Shown one piece after another: positions 19,868-28,955 of a DNA stretch of 40,169 nucleotides; position 1 is the first letter of the stretch; the number at the start of each line of letters is the position of its first letter. The stretch spans positions 1 to 40,169 of the forward strand of contig OMWF01000257.1 of assembly GCA_900314665.1 (NCBI GenBank), written 5' to 3'. This DNA comes from an uncultured Actinomycetes bacterium. Lineage in GTDB: Bacteria > Actinomycetota > Coriobacteriia > Coriobacteriales > RUG033. The notes under the pieces are model-generated. The model made no database searches. It saw nothing but the letters and a program-made list of their open reading frames with translations, and had not been told where the DNA came from. The position numbers and the translations under genes are program-made.

Positions 19868-20191
19868 GGGCGGCCGGCACCGGCGGCGGCTGCGCTCCGT
19901 CGTGCCGACGAGCGCCGAGACGCACTTGGGGCGGCCGGCGCGGGCGGCGTCCGCATGCTTTGGCAGCCGTGCTCTATGACAGCCGAGCGGCGGGCACCAG
20001 TACACGGAAAGCGGGCCCGGGGGCGGCACGTCTTGTACCAAACGGTGTATCATCTGCGAGAATAAACGGGGGTAGACAAGCGCGCGCAGGGGCGTATCGG
20101 GGTTCGCGCGTTTGCATCCGCGCAATGCCCACAGACGCTGTCTTTCGGATACGGATGGCCAACTGGGCCTGTTGTCGCTTTGAGGAGGGTC
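19868..20191 (+). other. Spacer between tgt and secD with no gene recognised
   Basis: No credible coding sequence is seen in these 324 bases: there is no small membrane protein like YajC in any frame with a ribosome site. A TATCAT at 20048-20053 could be a -10 for secDF, but no good -35 precedes it. The part next to tgt is GC-rich and repetitive in GGCGG and CCGGC runs, without a clean terminator. Confidence 0.5.
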
Positions 20192-21871
20192 ATGGCACGC
20201 AAAAAGGACGATGCGTCCGAAGAGTTCAAGATGGGCGTGGGCGCAGGGAAGCGCGAACGCTCCAAGGCGGAGCAGAAGCGCGAGCGCAAGGCCGCCAATC
20301 GGGCTGCGGCGCGCGAGGCTGAGGAAAACGCCGACAAGGTCTCAGAACGCACCAGGGCGGATGCCGAGGAGCGGCAGAGCGAGCGTGAGCGCCTGGCAAG
20401 CAGAGGCGGCTCTTCCCGCGCCCATCGCCATGGGCATAAGTCGGTGCGAGACCGGCACAACATCACCCTGCTCGTCGTCTTGGCCTGCGTGGTGGCCTTT
20501 GCGGTCTTCATGTTTGTGCCGCCTGCCAAGACCATCACGCAGGGCCTTGACATCCAGGGCGGCCTCTCGGTCATCATGACCGCCTCGCACCCGGATGGCT
20601 CCGCCGTCACCAACGACGAGATGCAGGAGGCCATCTCCATCGTGGAGCGCCGCGTCAACTCGCTCGGCGCCTCAGAGGCCACAGTCCAGCAGGATGGCTC
20701 CAACTCGATTCTGGTGCAGATTCCCGGCGTGGAGGACTCGGACACCGCCTTGACGACTATCGGCCGCACCGGCACCCTTGAGTTCGTCGACCTGAACGAC
20801 ATCTCAGATGCCTCCGAGGTGCTCGCCATCATGCGGGGGCAGACCGGCCAGACGCTTGAGCCGGGAACTTACACCCCGTTCATGACCGGCGACTCCATCA
20901 CCAACGTCACCATCGGGCAGGAGTCGCGCGGATCCGCCTCCTACGCCGTCAACCTGACCCTCAACGGCGAGGGCACGCAGGCCTTCGCCGACGTCTCGAC
21001 CGCGCTCGTCTCGACCCACGGCCAGATCGCCATCGTGCTCGACGGCGTGGTTCAGAGCGCGCCGGCGGTGCAGAGCGCGATCACGGGCGGACAGGTGCAG
21101 ATCACGGGCAATTACACGCTCGAGGAGGCCAAGTCCCTGCAGACGGTGCTCGAATCCGGCGCCCTGCCGGTCACCCTGACCTTCTCCGAGGCGCGCACCG
21201 TGGGACCCACCCTCGGCCAGGAGTCTCTGAGCCAGGCCGTCATGGCGGCTCTGGTGGGCATGGCCATCGTAATCGTCTACCTGCTCTTCTTCTACGGCGG
21301 CCTGGGCATCCTGACCGCTGCGAACCTGATCGTCTTCGGCCTCATCTACCTCGGGCTTCTGGCGGTGCTCTCGCGGCTCGGGGTCTTTGCCCTCTCGCTT
21401 GCCGGCTTGGCGGGCATCGTGCTCACCATCGGCATGGCGGCGGACTCCTCGATCCTCGTCCTCGAGCGCTTCCGCGAGGAGATCCGCATGGGCAAGTCCA
21501 TCAAGTCGGCCTCCATCTCCGGCGTCCGCCACGGCATCGGCACCTCGATCGACGGCGACGTGGTCTCGCTCGTCTCGGGCATCGTGCTCTTCATCGTGGC
21601 CGTGGGCGCCGTCAAGGGCTTTGGCCTCACCCTGGTCCTCGGCATCCTGGTCGACATCCTGACCATGTTCATCTTCAAGGCGCCCATCATCCGCCTGTTG
21701 GCGCCCGGCCAGATCACCCGCCATCCGGGCTTCTGGGGGCTCTCCGCCGACGTGGCCGAGGGCGTGGCCCATGGGGCGGGCGACAACGACGAGTCCTCCT
21801 CCAAGCATCGCAGGAAGAAGCACGCTGCGTCGGACGGCGCAGCCGAGAAGGGAGGTGCCGACCGTGCGTAG
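20192..21871 (+). CDS. secD: Protein translocase subunit SecD
   Basis: SecD works with SecF to drive late protein export using the proton motive force. In the 559-residue product the first membrane span is at about 91-109, followed by GLDIQGGLSV (the D1 motif), the large P1 extracytoplasmic domain, and five further spans from about residue 350 with GMAADSSILVLERFREE. The first 90 residues form a long, very charged cytoplasmic extension (Lys, Arg, Glu, Ala), unusual because SecD normally starts a few residues before span 1. The C-terminus is also basic (KHRRKKH). ATG 20192 has GAGGAGGGT just before it. Its end overlaps secF by eight bases. Confidence 0.95.
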   Translation: MARKKDDASEEFKMGVGAGKRERSKAEQKRERKAANRAAAREAEENADKVSERTRADAEERQSERERLASRGGSSRAHRHGHKSVRDRHNITLLVVLACVVAFAVFMFVPPAKTITQGLDIQGGLSVIMTASHPDGSAVTNDEMQEAISIVERRVNSLGASEATVQQDGSNSILVQIPGVEDSDTALTTIGRTGTLEFVDLNDISDASEVLAIMRGQTGQTLEPGTYTPFMTGDSITNVTIGQESRGSASYAVNLTLNGEGTQAFADVSTALVSTHGQIAIVLDGVVQSAPAVQSAITGGQVQITGNYTLEEAKSLQTVLESGALPVTLTFSEARTVGPTLGQESLSQAVMAALVGMAIVIVYLLFFYGGLGILTAANLIVFGLIYLGLLAVLSRLGVFALSLAGLAGIVLTIGMAADSSILVLERFREEIRMGKSIKSASISGVRHGIGTSIDGDVVSLVSGIVLFIVAVGAVKGFGLTLVLGILVDILTMFIFKAPIIRLLAPGQITRHPGFWGLSADVAEGVAHGAGDNDESSSKHRRKKHAASDGAAEKGGADRA

Positions 21872-22781
21872 GTTCATTACCAAGGACATCCCGTTCATGC
21901 GGGTTCGCAAGGTCTTCTACGCCATCTCGCTGGCCCTGGTCGTCATCTCCATCGTGGCCATCGGCGCCCGCGGGCTCAACCTGGGCATCGAGTTCCAGGG
22001 TGGAACTTCCATCGACTTCACCAGCGCCGAGGGCATCTCCACCGAGCAGATGCGGCAGGCCTTCGACGATGCCGGCGTGAGCAACGCCACCATTCAGACC
22101 ACCTCCACCAACGGGCAGAGCGGCTTTCTGGTGAGGACGAGCGAGACGGTCCCCGACACCGCCGCCGCCATCGCCAACCAGGTGGGCGCGCAGCTCGGCC
22201 TGCCCTCCGACTCCTACCAGGTCACCACCATCGGCCCCGAGTGGGGCAGCAACGTGATGCGGCAGTCGCTCATCGCCTTCATCATCTCCATCGCCGCCAT
22301 CATCGTGTACATCTCGATCCGCTTCGAGTACAAGATGTCCCTGACGGCCATCCTGGCGCTGTTCCACGACCTCATCATCATCGTCGGCATCTACGCCCTG
22401 ACCGGGCGGGAGATCACCCCCAACGTGATCGCCGCCCTGCTCACCATCCTCGGCTACTCGCTGTACGACACGGTGGTCGTGTTCCACCGAATCAATGAGA
22501 ACGCCAACCCCTCCATGAAGCACTCGTACTTCTGGACCGCCAATCACTCCATCAACGAGGTGTTCATCCGCACCATCAACACCACGCTGACCTCGCTCAT
22601 CCCGGTGCTGTGCATGCTCTTCTTTGGCGGGGCCACGCTCAAGGACTTTGCCTTCGCCATGGCCCTGGGCCTCATCTTCGGGTCCTACTCGTCGATCGGC
22701 GTCGCCTCCCCGCTGTTTGCCGCCTGGAAGACACGCGAGCCGGCCTACAAGCGCCTGGCCGCCAAGTACGGCGAGGCGTAG
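21864..22781 (+). CDS. secF: Protein translocase subunit SecF
   Basis: SecF is the partner of SecD. The 305-residue protein has a first span at about 17-35, GIEFQGGTSIDF in the position of the family GIDFxGG motif, and five C-terminal spans with ISIRFEYKMSLTAILALFHD and GYSLYDTVVVFHRINEN. GTG 21864 overlaps the secD end by eight bases and is preceded by GGGAGGTG within secD, so the two are translationally coupled. The next gene, the RecJ fusion, begins ten bases after the stop and is very likely in the same transcript. Confidence 0.95.
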   Translation: MRRFITKDIPFMRVRKVFYAISLALVVISIVAIGARGLNLGIEFQGGTSIDFTSAEGISTEQMRQAFDDAGVSNATIQTTSTNGQSGFLVRTSETVPDTAAAIANQVGAQLGLPSDSYQVTTIGPEWGSNVMRQSLIAFIISIAAIIVYISIRFEYKMSLTAILALFHDLIIIVGIYALTGREITPNVIAALLTILGYSLYDTVVVFHRINENANPSMKHSYFWTANHSINEVFIRTINTTLTSLIPVLCMLFFGGATLKDFAFAMALGLIFGSYSSIGVASPLFAAWKTREPAYKRLAAKYGEA

Positions 22782-22790
22782 GGGAGCGGC

Positions 22791-25700
22791 GTGAGCTTGG
22801 ACAGCTGCGAGCAACATAGAAGGTGGGAGCTCAGGCCCGCCGACGAGAACCGCGTCAGGCAGCTCCAGTCAGAACTGGGGCTGCCCCATTTGGTGGCCCG
22901 CACCCTGGTTGCTCGCGGCATCGACACGCCGGATGGCGCGCGGGTCTTCTTCGAGCCCTCGCTGGCGCGCGATTGGGCTGACCCGACGGTCATCCCCGGC
23001 CTGACGGACGTGGCAGACGCCGTCGAGGCTGCACTCGACGGAGGCCAGAAGATCGCCATCTTCGGTGACTTCGACGTGGACGGCGTGACCGCCACCGCGG
23101 TCCTGGCGCGCGCCCTCCGCTCGCTCGGTGCCGAGGTGGTGCCGTTCCTGCCGATGCGGGAGGGGGAGGGCTACGGCCTCTCGGTGGCCGCGCTCGAGCG
23201 GCTGCTCGCGCACGACCCCGACTTCATCGTCACCGTCGACAACGGCATCGCTGCCGCCGCGGAGGTGGCCTGGCTGCTTGACCGTGGCGTGAGGGTCGCC
23301 GTCACCGACCACCATGAGCCGGCAGACCTGGTGCCCGAGGGGGTCCCGGTCTGCGACCCCAAGCTCGCCGCCGAGGGTCCCTCCCGAGAGCTCGCCGGGG
23401 TGGGCGTGGCCCTCAAGCTCGTGTGCGAGCTTGGGCGCCGCCGCGGCCAGCCCGATCTCTGGCGCAGCCTCACCGACCTCGCCTCCCTCGGCACGGTGGC
23501 CGACCTGATGCCCTTCACCCCCGAGAACCGCTCCCTGGTGGCGGATGGGGTCGCGCGCATCAATGCGGCGCCCCGCCCGGGCATCGCCGCCCTGGCGGCT
23601 TTGGCGGGGGCGGACACCCGGGAGATGACCTCCGAGTCCCTGTCCTTCTCGCTCATCCCGCGCATCAATGCCGCGGGACGCATCGACGACCCCATGATCG
23701 CCCTCGATCTCCTGCTGACAGACGACCTCGACACCGTCAACCGGGCGGCGGCCCAGCTCGAGGAGATCAACACCCGGCGCCGTCAGATAGAGTCGGAGCT
23801 GTCCGAGCAGGCCACGGCCCAGGCCGAGCAGATCTATCACGGCGAGCGAGCGCTGGTGCTCGCCGGCGAGGGCTGGCATGAGGGGGTCAAAGGCATCGTC
23901 GCTTCCCGGCTGGTCAACACCTACAAGGTGCCCACCATCCTCTTCTCGATCCACGACGGCATCGCCCGCGGCTCGGGTCGCACCGTGGGGTCGATCAACC
24001 TCTTCCAGGCGGTGAGCGCCTGCTCCGACATCCTGGAGCGCTTTGGCGGACACGAGGCGGCGGTGGGGGTGACCGTCAAGGAGGAGAACCTCCCGGAGTT
24101 CACCCGCCGCTTCACGGCGGAGATGGACAAGCTTCCCGAGCGGGCCTTTGTCAACGTCCGAAAGGTCGACGCCCTGGTGAGCCTCTCCGAGCTCACCTTT
24201 GAGAACCTCGACAAGATCCGGCTGCTCCAGCCCTTTGGACAAGGGATGCGCGAGCCGCTCTTCGTAGCCCCCCACGTTTTCATGGACAACCGCGGCGTGG
24301 TCGGCAAGACCGGGGACCACCTGCGCTTCACCGCCACCGACGGTCTTTCGCGGGTGCCCGCCATCAGGTTTCGCTGTCCCCAGATTGACGAGTTCCTCGA
24401 ATGCGACTCGGCGGTCGACGTCGTCTTCGAGGGCCGGGCGGAGGAGTGGCACGGGCGCTGCCAGGCTAAGATGATCGTGCGCGACATCGAGCAGATACCA
24501 GGGGAGGAGGACCCTCAGGTCGATGACGGCACCGTCTCCGGCCGCCTGATGGCCCACGCAGATGAATACCTGGCCGCCGGTCCCTATGTCGGGATCGAGG
24601 AGGCCGTCTCGTTCCATACCAAGGTGGCTGGCGTCACCTTCGAGGGGCGCCAGGACCGCATCGCCGGGCTTGCCGCCGGCGACGAGCTGGCCCTGGTGCG
24701 CGAGCCGGACAACGTCCATGACCCGCACGCGGTCGCGGTCCTGTCATCAGCCGGGCAGGTGGGTTTTTTGAACCGGCGGCTCGCGGAGCGGCTGGCGCCC
24801 TTGATGGACGGAGGAGCCGCCTACGGCGCCTGGGTGACCGAGGTGACCGGCGGCATGTGCGTCAAGGACTCGGACGACCAGCCCGATGAGCTCGCCCGGC
24901 CCGCGGCCCTGGGGCTCAACATCGAGGTTCGGCGCGTCGGCGCTGCCGCGGCGGCAGAGGGCGGGCCTGGCCAAGAGGACGCATCGACGCGGCGCGCCCG
25001 CTGGGCGGCCCTTGCGGATGACGAGCTCGACGAGCGCCTCAAGGAGGCCCTCATCGGGTCTGCCGCCATGCATCAGGCCCAAGTCGACGCCCTGGCCAAT
25101 CTCAAGGCCGGCCGCTCGACCCTGGTGGTGATGGCCACCGGCCGCGGCAAGTCCCTCATCTTCCACCTGCACGCCGCCCGCACCGCCCTGCGTCAGGGAA
25201 AGGCCTCCGTCTTCGTCTACCCGCTGCGGGCCCTGGTCGCCGACCAGCTGGTTCATCTGAGCGACGTGCTTGCCCGCTTCGGCCTTGCCGCGCGGGTGCT
25301 CACCGGCGAGACGCCTCGGCAGGAGCGCGAGGAGGTCCTCGGCGCACTGGCTTCCGGGGACGTCCATGTGATTCTCACCACCCCCGAATACCTGGCCCTG
25401 CACGCCGGACAGCTGGGCCAGGCGGGGAGGATCGGCTTTCTCGCCGTCGACGAAGCCCATCACATCGGGCTCGCCAAGAGTGGCCACAGGAGCGCCTACC
25501 ACCAGCTGCCCCAAGTTCGCGAGCAGCTGGGGGAGCCGGTCTGCCTGGCGGCCACCGCCACCTGCCGCCCCGAGGACGCCCGCGCCATTGAGGAGACGCT
25601 CGACATCGGCGCCCGCGTCCTCGACCCCGCCATCCGCGAGAACCTGGGGATAGACGACCAGCGCGCCGACCGTCCCGGCAAGGTGCGCGACACTTACCTG

Positions 25701-26528
25701 GCCTCCGTCGCCGCATCCGGCGAGAAGCTCATCGCCTATACCAGCTCGCGCAACGGCACGGTCCGGCTGGCGCGCATGCTGCGCAAGCGGCTGCCGCAGC
25801 TTGCCGGCCGGATCGCCTACTACCATGGCGGTCTGCCGCGGGCTGAGCGCCTGGCGGTGGAGGAGGCCTTCCGTACCGGCGAGGTCGCCTGCCTGGTCGC
25901 CACCAGCGCCTTTGGCGAGGGGGTCAACATCCCCGACATCCGCCACGTGGTGCTCTACCACCTGCCCTTCAATGACGTCGAGTTCAACCAGATGTCGGGG
26001 CGTGCCGGGCGCGACGGCCGGCCCGCCACCGTCCACCTGCTCTACTCCCGCCCCGACCAGCGCATCAACGAGCAGATACTGGGGTCGGAGGCGCCTTCGC
26101 GCACCGACCTGGCGGTGCTCTACCGGGCGTTGCACCGTCTGGCCCAGCAGGGCGCCCTGGCCACCGTTGAGGGGGCGGAGCCGCCAGCTGGGACGGACGC
26201 CGTGCTCGTCGAGCGCCCCGCCGTGACCCGCGCCCAGCTGGTCGAGGAGTGCCTGAGGGACGACGTCCGCTGCGGACTCGACGAAGACGGCGTCTCCACC
26301 GGGCTGGCGGTCTTCTCGGAGCTTGGATTCGTGAGGCTCACCGGCAAGGGGTCGGGGCGGCGGATCTGCTACGTGGAGCACCCGCTCCATGCCGACCTGG
26401 CGACATCGACGCGCTACCGCGAGGGCCAGGCCGAGCTGGAGGAGTTCTCGGCCTTCGCCACCTGGGCGCTCGGAGCTCCGGCGGAGGAGGTGCTCGCCCG
26501 CATCAACCGGGCCATCCTGCCCGCGTAG
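22791..26528 (+). CDS. recJ: RecJ exonuclease fused to a HIRAN domain and a RecQ-like helicase
   Basis: One uninterrupted 1245-residue frame carries three modules. Residues 1-575 are RecJ: FGDFDVDGVTAT with Asp93, 95 and 97, VDNG with Asp150, DHH at 173-175, the DHHA1 motif FGGHEAAVG near 418-426, and the C-terminal OB part. Residues about 605-695 read as a HIRAN domain (VAGVTFEGRQDRI, LVREPDNVHDPHAVAV, VGFLNRRLAERLAPL). Residues about 735-1115 are a superfamily 2 helicase of RecQ type: Walker A ATGRGKS (782-788), DEAH (887-890), TAT motif III, and motif VI QMSGRAGRDGR (1067-1077). The remaining 130 residues look like a winged helix; no zinc-binding RQC or HRDC domain is obvious. RecJ degrades single strands 5' to 3', RecQ unwinds DNA, and HIRAN domains bind DNA ends. 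The position between secF and relA is that of recJ in Gram-positives. Confidence 0.95.
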   Translation: MSLDSCEQHRRWELRPADENRVRQLQSELGLPHLVARTLVARGIDTPDGARVFFEPSLARDWADPTVIPGLTDVADAVEAALDGGQKIAIFGDFDVDGVTATAVLARALRSLGAEVVPFLPMREGEGYGLSVAALERLLAHDPDFIVTVDNGIAAAAEVAWLLDRGVRVAVTDHHEPADLVPEGVPVCDPKLAAEGPSRELAGVGVALKLVCELGRRRGQPDLWRSLTDLASLGTVADLMPFTPENRSLVADGVARINAAPRPGIAALAALAGADTREMTSESLSFSLIPRINAAGRIDDPMIALDLLLTDDLDTVNRAAAQLEEINTRRRQIESELSEQATAQAEQIYHGERALVLAGEGWHEGVKGIVASRLVNTYKVPTILFSIHDGIARGSGRTVGSINLFQAVSACSDILERFGGHEAAVGVTVKEENLPEFTRRFTAEMDKLPERAFVNVRKVDALVSLSELTFENLDKIRLLQPFGQGMREPLFVAPHVFMDNRGVVGKTGDHLRFTATDGLSRVPAIRFRCPQIDEFLECDSAVDVVFEGRAEEWHGRCQAKMIVRDIEQIPGEEDPQVDDGTVSGRLMAHADEYLAAGPYVGIEEAVSFHTKVAGVTFEGRQDRIAGLAAGDELALVREPDNVHDPHAVAVLSSAGQVGFLNRRLAERLAPLMDGGAAYGAWVTEVTGGMCVKDSDDQPDELARPAALGLNIEVRRVGAAAAAEGGPGQEDASTRRARWAALADDELDERLKEALIGSAAMHQAQVDALANLKAGRSTLVVMATGRGKSLIFHLHAARTALRQGKASVFVYPLRALVADQLVHLSDVLARFGLAARVLTGETPRQEREEVLGALASGDVHVILTTPEYLALHAGQLGQAGRIGFLAVDEAHHIGLAKSGHRSAYHQLPQVREQLGEPVCLAATATCRPEDARAIEETLDIGARVLDPAIRENLGIDDQRADRPGKVRDTYLASVAASGEKLIAYTSSRNGTVRLARMLRKRLPQLAGRIAYYHGGLPRAERLAVEEAFRTGEVACLVATSAFGEGVNIPDIRHVVLYHLPFNDVEFNQMSGRAGRDGRPATVHLLYSRPDQRINEQILGSEAPSRTDLAVLYRALHRLAQQGALATVEGAEPPAGTDAVLVERPAVTRAQLVEECLRDDVRCGLDEDGVSTGLAVFSELGFVRLTGKGSGRRICYVEHPLHADLATSTRYREGQAELEEFSAFATWALGAPAEEVLARINRAILPA

Positions 26529-26690: not shown

Positions 26691-28955
26691 ATGGCAGACG
26701 GAGCCATCATTCCAGCCACCCAGCAGGGCATCAAGTCCTTGGACAACTTCGACAAGGTCATAGACCTGGTCTCGCGCTACCTCGACAAGAGCGACATCGA
26801 CCAGATCTGCCGCGCCTACGACTTTGCCTACGAGCGCCACAAGGGGCAACACCGAAAGAGCGGCGAGCCCTTTATCATCCATCCCGTCGAGGTGACGCTC
26901 ATCCTCGCGGACCTTAAGATGGATGCCGACACCCTCACCGCCGCCTTGCTCCATGACACGGTGGAGGACACCACGGCCACCCTGGACGAGGTGTCCGAGG
27001 CCTTCAACCCCACCGTGGCCGAGCTGGTCGACGGCGTGACCAAGATCAGCCGCCTTGAGATCGAGAGCTTGTCCGAGTCGCAGGCAAACAACATGCGCAA
27101 GATGCTGATCGCCATGTCAAAGGACATCCGCGTCATCGTGATCAAGCTGGCCGACCGCCTGCACAACATGCGGACGCTGATGGCCCTACGTGAAGACCGC
27201 CGCATCTTCAAGTCCCGCGAGACCATGGAGATCTACGCGCCGCTGGCCCACCGCCTGGGAATCAACTCGATCGCCTGGGAGCTTGAGGACCTGTCCTTCT
27301 TCTACCTCGAACCGGCCAAGTTCCAGCAGGTCTCCAAGATGGTGGCGGAGAGCCGTACCGCTCGCGAGGAGTACCTGGAGCGCGCCACCAAGCTGCTGCG
27401 CGAGGAGCTCGACCGGGTAGGCATCAAGGGCACCATCTCCGGGCGCCCCAAGCACCTCTACTCCATCTACAACAAGATGACCCAGAAGGGCAAGGCCTTC
27501 TCTGAGATCTATGACCTCATCGCCCTGCGCATCATCGTAGACACCGTCAAGGACTGCTACTCCGCCTTGGGCGCGGTGCACACCCTGTGGCATCCCATGC
27601 CGGGACGCTTCAAAGACTACATCGCGATGCCCAAGTTCAACATGTACCAGTCGCTGCACACCACGGTCATCGGACCTGACGGGCGCCCGCTCGAGATTCA
27701 GATCCGCACCGAGGAGATGCACCGTATGAACGAGTACGGCATCGCCGCGCACTGGCGCTACAAGGAGGGCGGCTCGAGCAGCGCCACCGACGAGAAGTTC
27801 GACCAGCAGCTCACCTGGCTGAGGCAGATGCTCGACTGGGAGCACGAGACCGACGACCCCAAGGAGTTCATGGACTCCCTGCGCATCGACCTCTTTGACT
27901 CGGAGGTCTTTGTCTTCACCCCCAAGGGCGAGGTCATCAGCCTGCGCAGCGGCTCCACTCCCATCGACTTCGCCTACGCCATCCACACCGAGGTGGGCAA
28001 CCACTGCGTCGGCGCTAAGGTCAACGGCAAGATTGTGCCCCTCGGCTACGAGCTGCAGATGGGCGACCGGGTGGAGATACTCACCCAGAACAGCTCCGTT
28101 CCCTCGCGCGACTGGCTCAACATCGTCAAGACGCCGCGGGCCCGGGCCAAGATCCGCTCGTACTTCTCCAAGGCGAGCCACGATGACGACGTGCTGCACG
28201 GCCGAGACCTCGTGGTGCGCGAGCTGCGCAAGCACGGCATCGGCTTCTCCTCGTCGACCGCCACCCGGGCGATGACCGACCTGGCAAGCGACCTGGGATT
28301 TCCCACCGAGGACGACCTCCTGGCCGCCGTGGGCACCAACAAGATCTCTCCGCGCCAGATCACCAACCGCCTCATCAAGCTCCTGGCCAAGGACGGGCAG
28401 GAGGCGGCCGAGGCCAAGATGCCGAGCTTCACCCTCAACACGCCGATGGAGACGCCGCGCCCCGCTCGGCGCAAGCGCTCGGGCACCGGCGTGGTGGTCA
28501 AGGGGCTGGACGACGCCTTGGTCCGCCTCTCGCACTGCTGCAATCCCATGCCCGGCGACGATATCGTGGGGTTCGTGACCCGCGGTCGCGGCGTGTCGGT
28601 GCACCGGGTCGACTGCCCCAACGCCAAGTCGCTGCTCGCCAACCCCGAGCGGATCATCAGCGTGGAATGGGACACGGGGTCGGCCACCACCTTCCAGGTG
28701 GAGATCGTGGTCGAGGCCACCGACCGGCTCTACCTGCTGCAGGATGTCATCACCGCGCTCTCCGGCAGCGGTGTGAACGTCCTCTCCAGCTCCACCACCA
28801 CCCATCGGGACGGGCTGGTAGAGATGCGCTTCCTCTTTGAGGTCTCGGCCACCGAGCGCCTGGAGAGCATCCTGCGCGACGTGCGCGCGGTGGAGGGGGT
28901 CTTCGACGCCCACCGGATGCTGCCCACCAAGAGCGGCAAGAACAGGCGCGCGTAA
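26691..28955 (+). CDS. relA: Bifunctional (p)ppGpp synthetase/hydrolase (RelA/SpoT family)
   Basis: This 754-residue Rel protein makes and degrades the alarmone (p)ppGpp in response to starved ribosomes. The N-terminal HD hydrolase domain is intact (KSGEPFIIHPVEV, LLHDTVEDT with His88-Asp89). The synthetase domain has SGRPKHLYSIYNKM and RFKDYIAMPKFNMYQSLHTTV. Then come a TGS domain (VFVFTPKGEVISLRSG), the Cys/His region (LSHCCNPMPGDDIVGF), and a C-terminal ACT domain. Both activities are therefore predicted. ATG 26691 follows AGAGGAGGCG. It follows recJ, as in many Gram-positive genomes, but the apt gene often found between them is absent. Confidence 0.97.
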   Translation: MADGAIIPATQQGIKSLDNFDKVIDLVSRYLDKSDIDQICRAYDFAYERHKGQHRKSGEPFIIHPVEVTLILADLKMDADTLTAALLHDTVEDTTATLDEVSEAFNPTVAELVDGVTKISRLEIESLSESQANNMRKMLIAMSKDIRVIVIKLADRLHNMRTLMALREDRRIFKSRETMEIYAPLAHRLGINSIAWELEDLSFFYLEPAKFQQVSKMVAESRTAREEYLERATKLLREELDRVGIKGTISGRPKHLYSIYNKMTQKGKAFSEIYDLIALRIIVDTVKDCYSALGAVHTLWHPMPGRFKDYIAMPKFNMYQSLHTTVIGPDGRPLEIQIRTEEMHRMNEYGIAAHWRYKEGGSSSATDEKFDQQLTWLRQMLDWEHETDDPKEFMDSLRIDLFDSEVFVFTPKGEVISLRSGSTPIDFAYAIHTEVGNHCVGAKVNGKIVPLGYELQMGDRVEILTQNSSVPSRDWLNIVKTPRARAKIRSYFSKASHDDDVLHGRDLVVRELRKHGIGFSSSTATRAMTDLASDLGFPTEDDLLAAVGTNKISPRQITNRLIKLLAKDGQEAAEAKMPSFTLNTPMETPRPARRKRSGTGVVVKGLDDALVRLSHCCNPMPGDDIVGFVTRGRGVSVHRVDCPNAKSLLANPERIISVEWDTGSATTFQVEIVVEATDRLYLLQDVITALSGSGVNVLSSSTTTHRDGLVEMRFLFEVSATERLESILRDVRAVEGVFDAHRMLPTKSGKNRRA

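Follow-up and report, generated by a model that had tools for sequence, protein, structure and literature searches.

Nuclease-helicases consisting of a single chain are known as such, for example WRN and exonuclease-DinG. In E. coli, the 5′ strand is digested by RecJ; RecQ unwinds DNA 3′-5′ and is required for digestion to begin at blunt or 3′-tailed ends (PMC4846377). The C-terminal domain (CTD) of Deinococcus radiodurans RecJ is reported to bind the C-terminus of the single-stranded DNA-binding protein, SSB (PMC4846377), and the extra domain of Deinococcus RecJ, for which HHpred found no homologue, is reported to be critical for the interaction with HerA (PMC4663267). RecJ was also the most abundant partner co-purifying with SSB from B. 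subtilis in one study (PMC3000357). Here we analyzed a contig of an uncultured Actinomycetes bacterium of the class Coriobacteriia (OMWF01000257.1; the whole stretch of 40,169 nt is referred to as the window), in which one gene joins a RecJ nuclease to a HIRAN domain and a RecQ-like helicase. Neither a RecJ-helicase fusion nor a degenerate helicase in RecJ was reported earlier in the open-access literature searched, subscription papers and preprints being outside this scope.

The gene is an uninterrupted plus-strand frame at 22791-26528, which begins with GTG at 22791, ends with a stop codon at 26526-26528, contains no internal stop and encodes 1245 aa. It is composed of the following features.

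22791-26528, plus strand: recJ-HIRAN-helicase fusion gene, one open frame of 1245 aa, fused likewise in nearly all of 120 class genomes
23049-23495, plus strand: DHH domain, residues 87-235 (Pfam PF01368, 67 bits, above gathering)
23067-23084, plus strand: DFDVDG, residues 93-98, the RecJ catalytic DxDxDG motif
23307-23315, plus strand: DHH, residues 173-175, RecJ catalytic motif
23850-24122, plus strand: DHHA1 domain, residues 354-444 (Pfam PF02272, 52 bits, above gathering)
24165-24485, plus strand: RecJ OB domain, residues 459-565 (Pfam PF17768, RecJ_OB, 70 bits, above gathering)
24612-24815, plus strand: HIRAN, residues 608-675, or ~598-690 in family alignments (Pfam PF08797, 43.4 bits, gathering cut-off 24.7)
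25077-25568, plus strand: helicase RecA1 (DEAD), residues 763-926 (Pfam PF00270, 72 bits, above gathering)
25137-25154, plus strand: helicase motif Walker A, TGRGKS, residues 783-788, including K787
25449-25460, plus strand: helicase motif DEAH, residues 887-890
25638-26084, plus strand: helicase RecA2, residues 950-1098 (Pfam PF00271, Helicase_C, 93 bits at 974-1076, above gathering)
25905-25922, plus strand: motif V, within RecA2
25998-26018, plus strand: motif VI, GRAGRDG, residues 1070-1076, within RecA2
26085-26525, plus strand: winged-helix-like C-terminal tail, residues 1099-1245 (AlphaFold2 pLDDT, the predicted local distance difference test score, 89.5)

The original prediction, which was read from the DNA letters, had described a stop-free frame holding a complete RecJ with all DHH-family motifs, a HIRAN-like middle region and a superfamily 2 (SF2) helicase with intact Walker A, DEAH and motif VI. 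All of these elements were confirmed. The protein scored 459 bits with the NCBIfam recJ model (TIGR00644, cut-off 397), and the catalytic residues DxDxDG (93-98) and DHH (173-175) are invariant among the fusions; the middle region matched PF08797 above gathering in the hidden Markov model search, and the helicase matched both DEAD and Helicase_C. The description of the tail as winged-helix-like and devoid of the RecQ zinc domain held on both points, with the reservation that it is not the RQC domain of RecQ. That assignment was rejected, since a comparison with the tail of canonical RecQ detected no similarity (E = 0.2) and the fold is a generic winged helix. A comparison of the tail profile with PDB sequences gave only weak helix-turn-helix matches and did not find RecJ. 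In most relatives, the tail ends in N-(R/K)-P-I-x-P.

The nearest relatives of the SF2 core belong to the RecQ family, which provided all the best helicase matches by phmmer and Foldseek. Structure prediction, which had been proposed along with the original reading, returned a RecQ-like fold: the AlphaFold2 model of residues 595-1245 has a pLDDT of 89.4, and its closest PDB structures are RECQL5, RecQ, RECQ1, BLM and WRN. The region of the RecQ-type aromatic-rich loop (motifs II-III) is shortened to GHR(P/S)AY, in which R and Y are conserved and the first aromatic positions are missing.

Compared with bacterial RecJ (TIGR00644), the fusion retains the full DHH-DHHA1-OB nuclease with all motifs at the same locus, and the genome has no other RecJ, but the fusion has ~670 additional residues comprising HIRAN, the RecQ-like helicase with intact motifs, and the tail. 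The PF10141-type RecJ of Listeria and Paenibacillus, with a solved structure from S. aureus (8y30), has a CTD homologous to RecA2 and the tail of the fusion, and the locus is shared in Listeria; this type, however, is without RecA1 and HIRAN and has lost the RecA2 motifs, making ATPase activity impossible. Domain IV of Deinococcus-Thermus RecJ (drRecJ, 5f54) is an additional domain in the same position, but no homology to the fusion was detected. The motor shares the SF2 motifs with the RecQ family (RecQ, RECQL4, RECQL5 and WRN), its best matches in both sequence and structure. By analogy, the fusion would combine in one chain the two activities that E. coli RecQ and RecJ of the RecF pathway contribute as separate proteins, and the recJ-recQ gene pair of Bacteroidota, which likewise encodes separate proteins, is its unfused counterpart. 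In Parabacteroides (L138, 2495-6145), recJ and a RecQ-annotated helicase gene lie 9 bases apart, and the same adjacency was seen in other Bacteroidota records. As is generally known, HIRAN also adjoins an SF2 motor in HLTF-type proteins, but the motor of the fusion is RecQ-like, not SNF2-like, and is accompanied by a nuclease in the same chain.

The RecJ-helicase fusion is the rule throughout the class Coriobacteriia and occurs in part of the Bacillota. In the survey of RecJ length across the class that the original prediction had suggested, RecJ was detected in 116 of the 120 genomes and its frame was nearly always ~1100-1300 aa, so that the long fused form is indeed the rule. Representatives of the class families have the helicase and tail inside the same RecJ frame, the exceptions being mostly contig ends. 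A scan of a genome collection (~85,000 species) yielded 539 candidate stretches with coding sequence related to the HIRAN-helicase region, 80 of which were kept; RecJ is in the same frame in 76 of these, and the remaining 4 are truncated at the end of a contig or close to it. Members of the Bacillota (Orenia, Thermincola and others) carry the fusion with HIRAN, as does, in intact form, an actinobacterial family of another class (Oleimmundimicrobium). Three Bacillota genomes (G292, G297 and G339) have two RecJ genes each, one of ~810-890 aa and one of ~750-780 aa.

HIRAN is present in most Coriobacteriia lineages, in the Oleimmundimicrobium family and in the Bacillota members, and is absent from those members of order families f2, f4, f5, f6 and f10 that were sampled, although they keep the helicase. 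Given this distribution, HIRAN is best read as an old component that was lost several times. The original prediction had given it the part of end recognition in the machine; an obligatory HIRAN was rejected, since these families retain the helicase without it.

The helicase motifs are strictly conserved. K787, D887, E888, H890, R1071 and R1074 are invariant in 32/32 fusions chosen without regard to motifs, and N641 and D644 are conserved wherever HIRAN is present. For the 80 scan loci, motifs I and V give a biased picture of conservation because they served as search patterns. For three intact pairs, the ratios of nonsynonymous to synonymous substitution rates (dN/dS) of the RecJ and C-terminal halves were 0.18/0.21, 0.09/0.09 and 0.11/0.09. 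Where the C-terminal part has decayed (three pairs), its dN was 1.9-2.5 times the RecJ dN. The equal purifying selection apparent on both halves of the intact fusions is as would be expected of an active, needed motor.

RecJ of other actinobacterial classes is ~830-950 aa long and has a C-terminal stretch without a Pfam name, while the RecJ CTDs of Bacillota vary in length, those of Listeria and Paenibacillus matching PF10141 at 191 and 71 bits. In profile-profile comparison, the intact RecA2 and tail matched 29 Bacillota CTDs over 253 columns (E = 6e-30). RecA2 alone, which corresponds to the initial section of these CTDs, reached E = 2e-15, and the tail alone, which corresponds to the terminal section of PF10141, E = 7e-17 against the same profile; reversed-alignment controls gave E values of 0.34-0.44. 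The RecA1 and HIRAN profiles had no match to the Bacillota CTD profile. Independently built second alignments reproduced the relationship between fusions and Bacillota CTDs (E = 5.9e-26), and RecA2 plus tail matched the CTDs of other Actinomycetota at E values of 1e-13 to 9e-15. Moreover, residues 581-747 of the S. aureus RecJ structure 8y30 were matched by the Bacillota CTD profile (E = 1e-12). The window protein itself scored 14 bits with PF10141, below the gathering cut-off of 26.4. A canonical RecQ profile built from two sequences had no detectable similarity to the RecJ CTDs; because it fails to see them, it is through the fusions that the homology becomes visible. As shown by profile homology, the CTD of the RecJ of other Bacillota (PF10141) and Actinomycetota derives from the RecA2 and tail of the helicase, and the comparison shows the unexplained CTD in Listeria, Staphylococcus and their kin to be a decayed remnant of the fused motor. 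A link to the CTD of Deinococcus-Thermus RecJ was rejected, there being none by sequence profile or fold, and a search of viral contigs with Paenibacillus RecJ found no CTD-type sequences. In three other Actinomycetota (L129, L132 and L133), the RecJ frames extend ~280-480 residues upstream, counted stop to stop, and these extensions may be real or a mere open frame in GC-rich DNA.

Stages of decay were recognizable among 40 Bacillota RecJ loci. L252, L259, L270, L271 and L272 are intact. The helicase is recognizable but dead in L262 (HIRAN 34, RecA1 23, RecA2 25 and tail 87 bits), in L269, which lacks HIRAN (RecA1/RecA2/tail 46/74/92 bits), and in L266 (26/61/58 bits). L257 has only RecA2 (68 bits) and the tail (48 bits) and no RecA1, and the series ends in faint CTDs. 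Walker A, DEAH and motif VI are destroyed in the intermediates wherever those regions remain. Weak Pfam matches in the same proteins were to PF10141 (1e-4) and Helicase_C (0.05) in L257 and to DEAD (1.3e-5) and PF10141 (8e-4) in L269.

In the tree of RecJ domains, the intact forms do not make up one clade (approximately unbiased test, p = 5e-41), and the decayed L257 is sister to the intact L271 with a support of 97. The fusion helicases are one clade apart from canonical RecQ, and their main groups are those of the RecJ tree. The simplest reading is one fusion followed by long co-inheritance and repeated decay, the RecJ-helicase being presumably ancestral in these groups. We lean toward the view that RecJ-HIRAN-helicase was already present in the ancestor shared by Actinomycetota and Bacillota, that the motor was kept in Coriobacteriia and scattered Bacillota, and that elsewhere it died many times, leaving the RecA2-tail stump as the everyday RecJ CTD, including that of the well-studied Firmicutes.

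Horizontal spread of the intact fused gene among Coriobacteriia, the Oleimmundimicrobium lineage and some Bacillota, with the decayed forms descending from such transfers, is possible but appears to be the poorer account. Intact forms are the minority of the Bacillota sample, and the fusions of other-class Actinomycetota group with Bacillota in the RecJ tree with moderate support, both of which speak for transfer. On the other hand, the secDF-recJ-relA neighborhood is common to the window and Listeria, the helicase and RecJ trees contain the same main clades, and signs of decay are widespread in the RecJ CTDs of Bacillota and Actinomycetota.

With regard to function, the DHH-DHHA1-OB part is predicted to be a 5′-3′ single-strand exonuclease, followed by HIRAN, a RecQ-like SF2 helicase that should be active, and the winged-helix-like tail. 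The helicase would most likely track 3′-5′ on one strand and open the duplex. The motor would then pass the displaced 5′ end on to the channel of RecJ beside the OB domain, where RecJ of the same chain would digest the 5′ strand, and a 3′ single strand would be left for RecA in end or gap resection. HIRAN, placed between nuclease and motor, probably holds the DNA end or junction; the HIRAN of HLTF binds 3′ ends. The E. coli pair of RecQ and RecJ makes such a self-contained resection machine, as the original prediction called it, plausible by analogy, and the unwinding may be short-range because the RecQ accessory domains are missing. In Bacillota, the remnant of the dead motor was perhaps kept as an SSB-docking domain.

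We consider it likely that the fusion protein is a one-chain RecJ nuclease and RecQ-like helicase, with the RecJ CTDs elsewhere derived from its motor. It would offer a natural one-chain version of RecQ-RecJ resection, the coupling of which is measurable with two point mutants. It also gives an origin for the CTD of Bacillota RecJ and suggests a repurposed dead motor as a possible source of SSB docking. Many Coriobacteriia are common gut bacteria, and in ~46/115 class genomes (~40%, by our count) the fusion itself is the strongest RecQ match. Recombination and replication restart may run through the fusion protein in many of these bacteria, because it is the only strong RecQ match there.

Several results weigh against this explanation. 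Unlike the RecQ family, the motor has no Pfam match to zinc-binding, RQC or HRDC domains, and RecQ models match residues 755-1118 (E = 2e-49) yet remain below the NCBI cut-offs (168/640 bits for TIGR01389 and 164/220 bits for the RecQ family model TIGR00614); unwinding polarity and processivity are therefore not to be assumed. Contig C112 of the same genome encodes a canonical RecQ that has zinc-binding, RQC and HRDC domains, and thus the fused motor is not its only RecQ-type helicase. Two species of one genus, G045 (L107) and G115 (L108), have RecJ of 571 and 584 aa with neither HIRAN nor helicase downstream, so that the fused helicase is dispensable at least there. By structure, the tail matches 8y30 at rank 13 with E = 0.16, which by itself is without significance, and no RecJ of Deinococcus or Thermus is among its structure matches. 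The RecJ tree was built quickly under a single model, contains many weak branches and drew compositional warnings, and horizontal transfer of the fused gene may account for part of the patchy scatter in Bacillota.

The original prediction had also suggested a search for separate recQ and recJ genes, which found the canonical recQ and no second recJ. As the sole recJ of the genome, the fusion replaces the ordinary recJ rather than adding a copy, as was claimed; the implication that it stands in for RecQ did not hold, and replacement of RecQ in this genome was rejected in view of the gene on C112. The genome also encodes a stand-alone HIRAN protein of 112 aa (L008, G000:C305, 1393-1731, minus strand). 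G045 and G115 have no RecQ-family match at E 1e-40. Their sister species G042 has the full fusion, making this a recent clean loss useful for comparison. No clear relation was seen by eye between an intact fusion and the absence of canonical RecQ in Bacillota.

The missing accessories and the second RecQ could also fit a rather unlikely alternative, in which the ATPase serves as translocase or fork remodeller to position RecJ, with HIRAN reading 3′ ends as in HLTF, for fork processing rather than for the production of long 3′ tails. HIRAN is conserved in most members, including N641 and D644, the zinc domain, RQC pin and HRDC used by RecQ in unwinding are absent, and a canonical RecQ is retained in the genome for bulk unwinding. 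Against this, the helicase motifs are still invariant in the several families that lost HIRAN, and many class genomes have no other strong RecQ match.

It is very improbable that Coriobacteriia acquired the helicase when a RecQ-like gene became joined to an ordinary RecJ, with only a superficial resemblance to the CTDs. Since recJ and RecQ-annotated helicase genes adjoin in Bacteroidota, a fusion of neighbors would be easy, and canonical RecQ has no detectable similarity to the CTDs. However, RecA2 and the tail, taken separately, are both homologous to the CTDs and in collinear order, with the reversed controls failing, intact fusions exist in Bacillota and in another actinobacterial class, and dead full-length intermediates are found. 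The profile results have already largely refuted this origin.

An artefact of assembly or annotation, or the existence of two separate products, can practically be dismissed: RecJ and the HIRAN-helicase halves are in different frames with a few-base overlap in one relative, G012, but nearly all of the 120 class genomes, single-contig ones among them, have the fused frame open, which excludes an error joining two genes. The frame is uninterrupted in >100 independent genomes, and purifying selection is equal on both halves. The split frames of that relative (L023, G012:C54) are a probable frameshift or a natural split.

The surroundings of the fusion gene in the window are as follows.

20180-21871, plus strand: secD, upstream neighbor (Pfam SecDF_P1_head, SecD_1st)
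21771-22781, plus strand: secF open frame, directly upstream (Pfam SecD_SecF_C, 191 bits)
22780-22786, plus strand: Shine-Dalgarno-like AGGGGAG preceding the GTG start and overlapping the secF stop codon, read from the sequence
26691-28955, plus strand: relA/spoT, downstream neighbor (Pfam HD_4, RelA_SpoT, TGS, ACT_4)

The SecD, SecF and RelA/SpoT neighbors verify the earlier placement of the gene at the normal recJ locus, after secDF and before relA. This secDF-recJ-relA order is ordinary for recJ, and the recJ gene of Listeria is found in the same neighborhood. The GTG start codon of the fusion is located 9 bases downstream of the secF stop codon.

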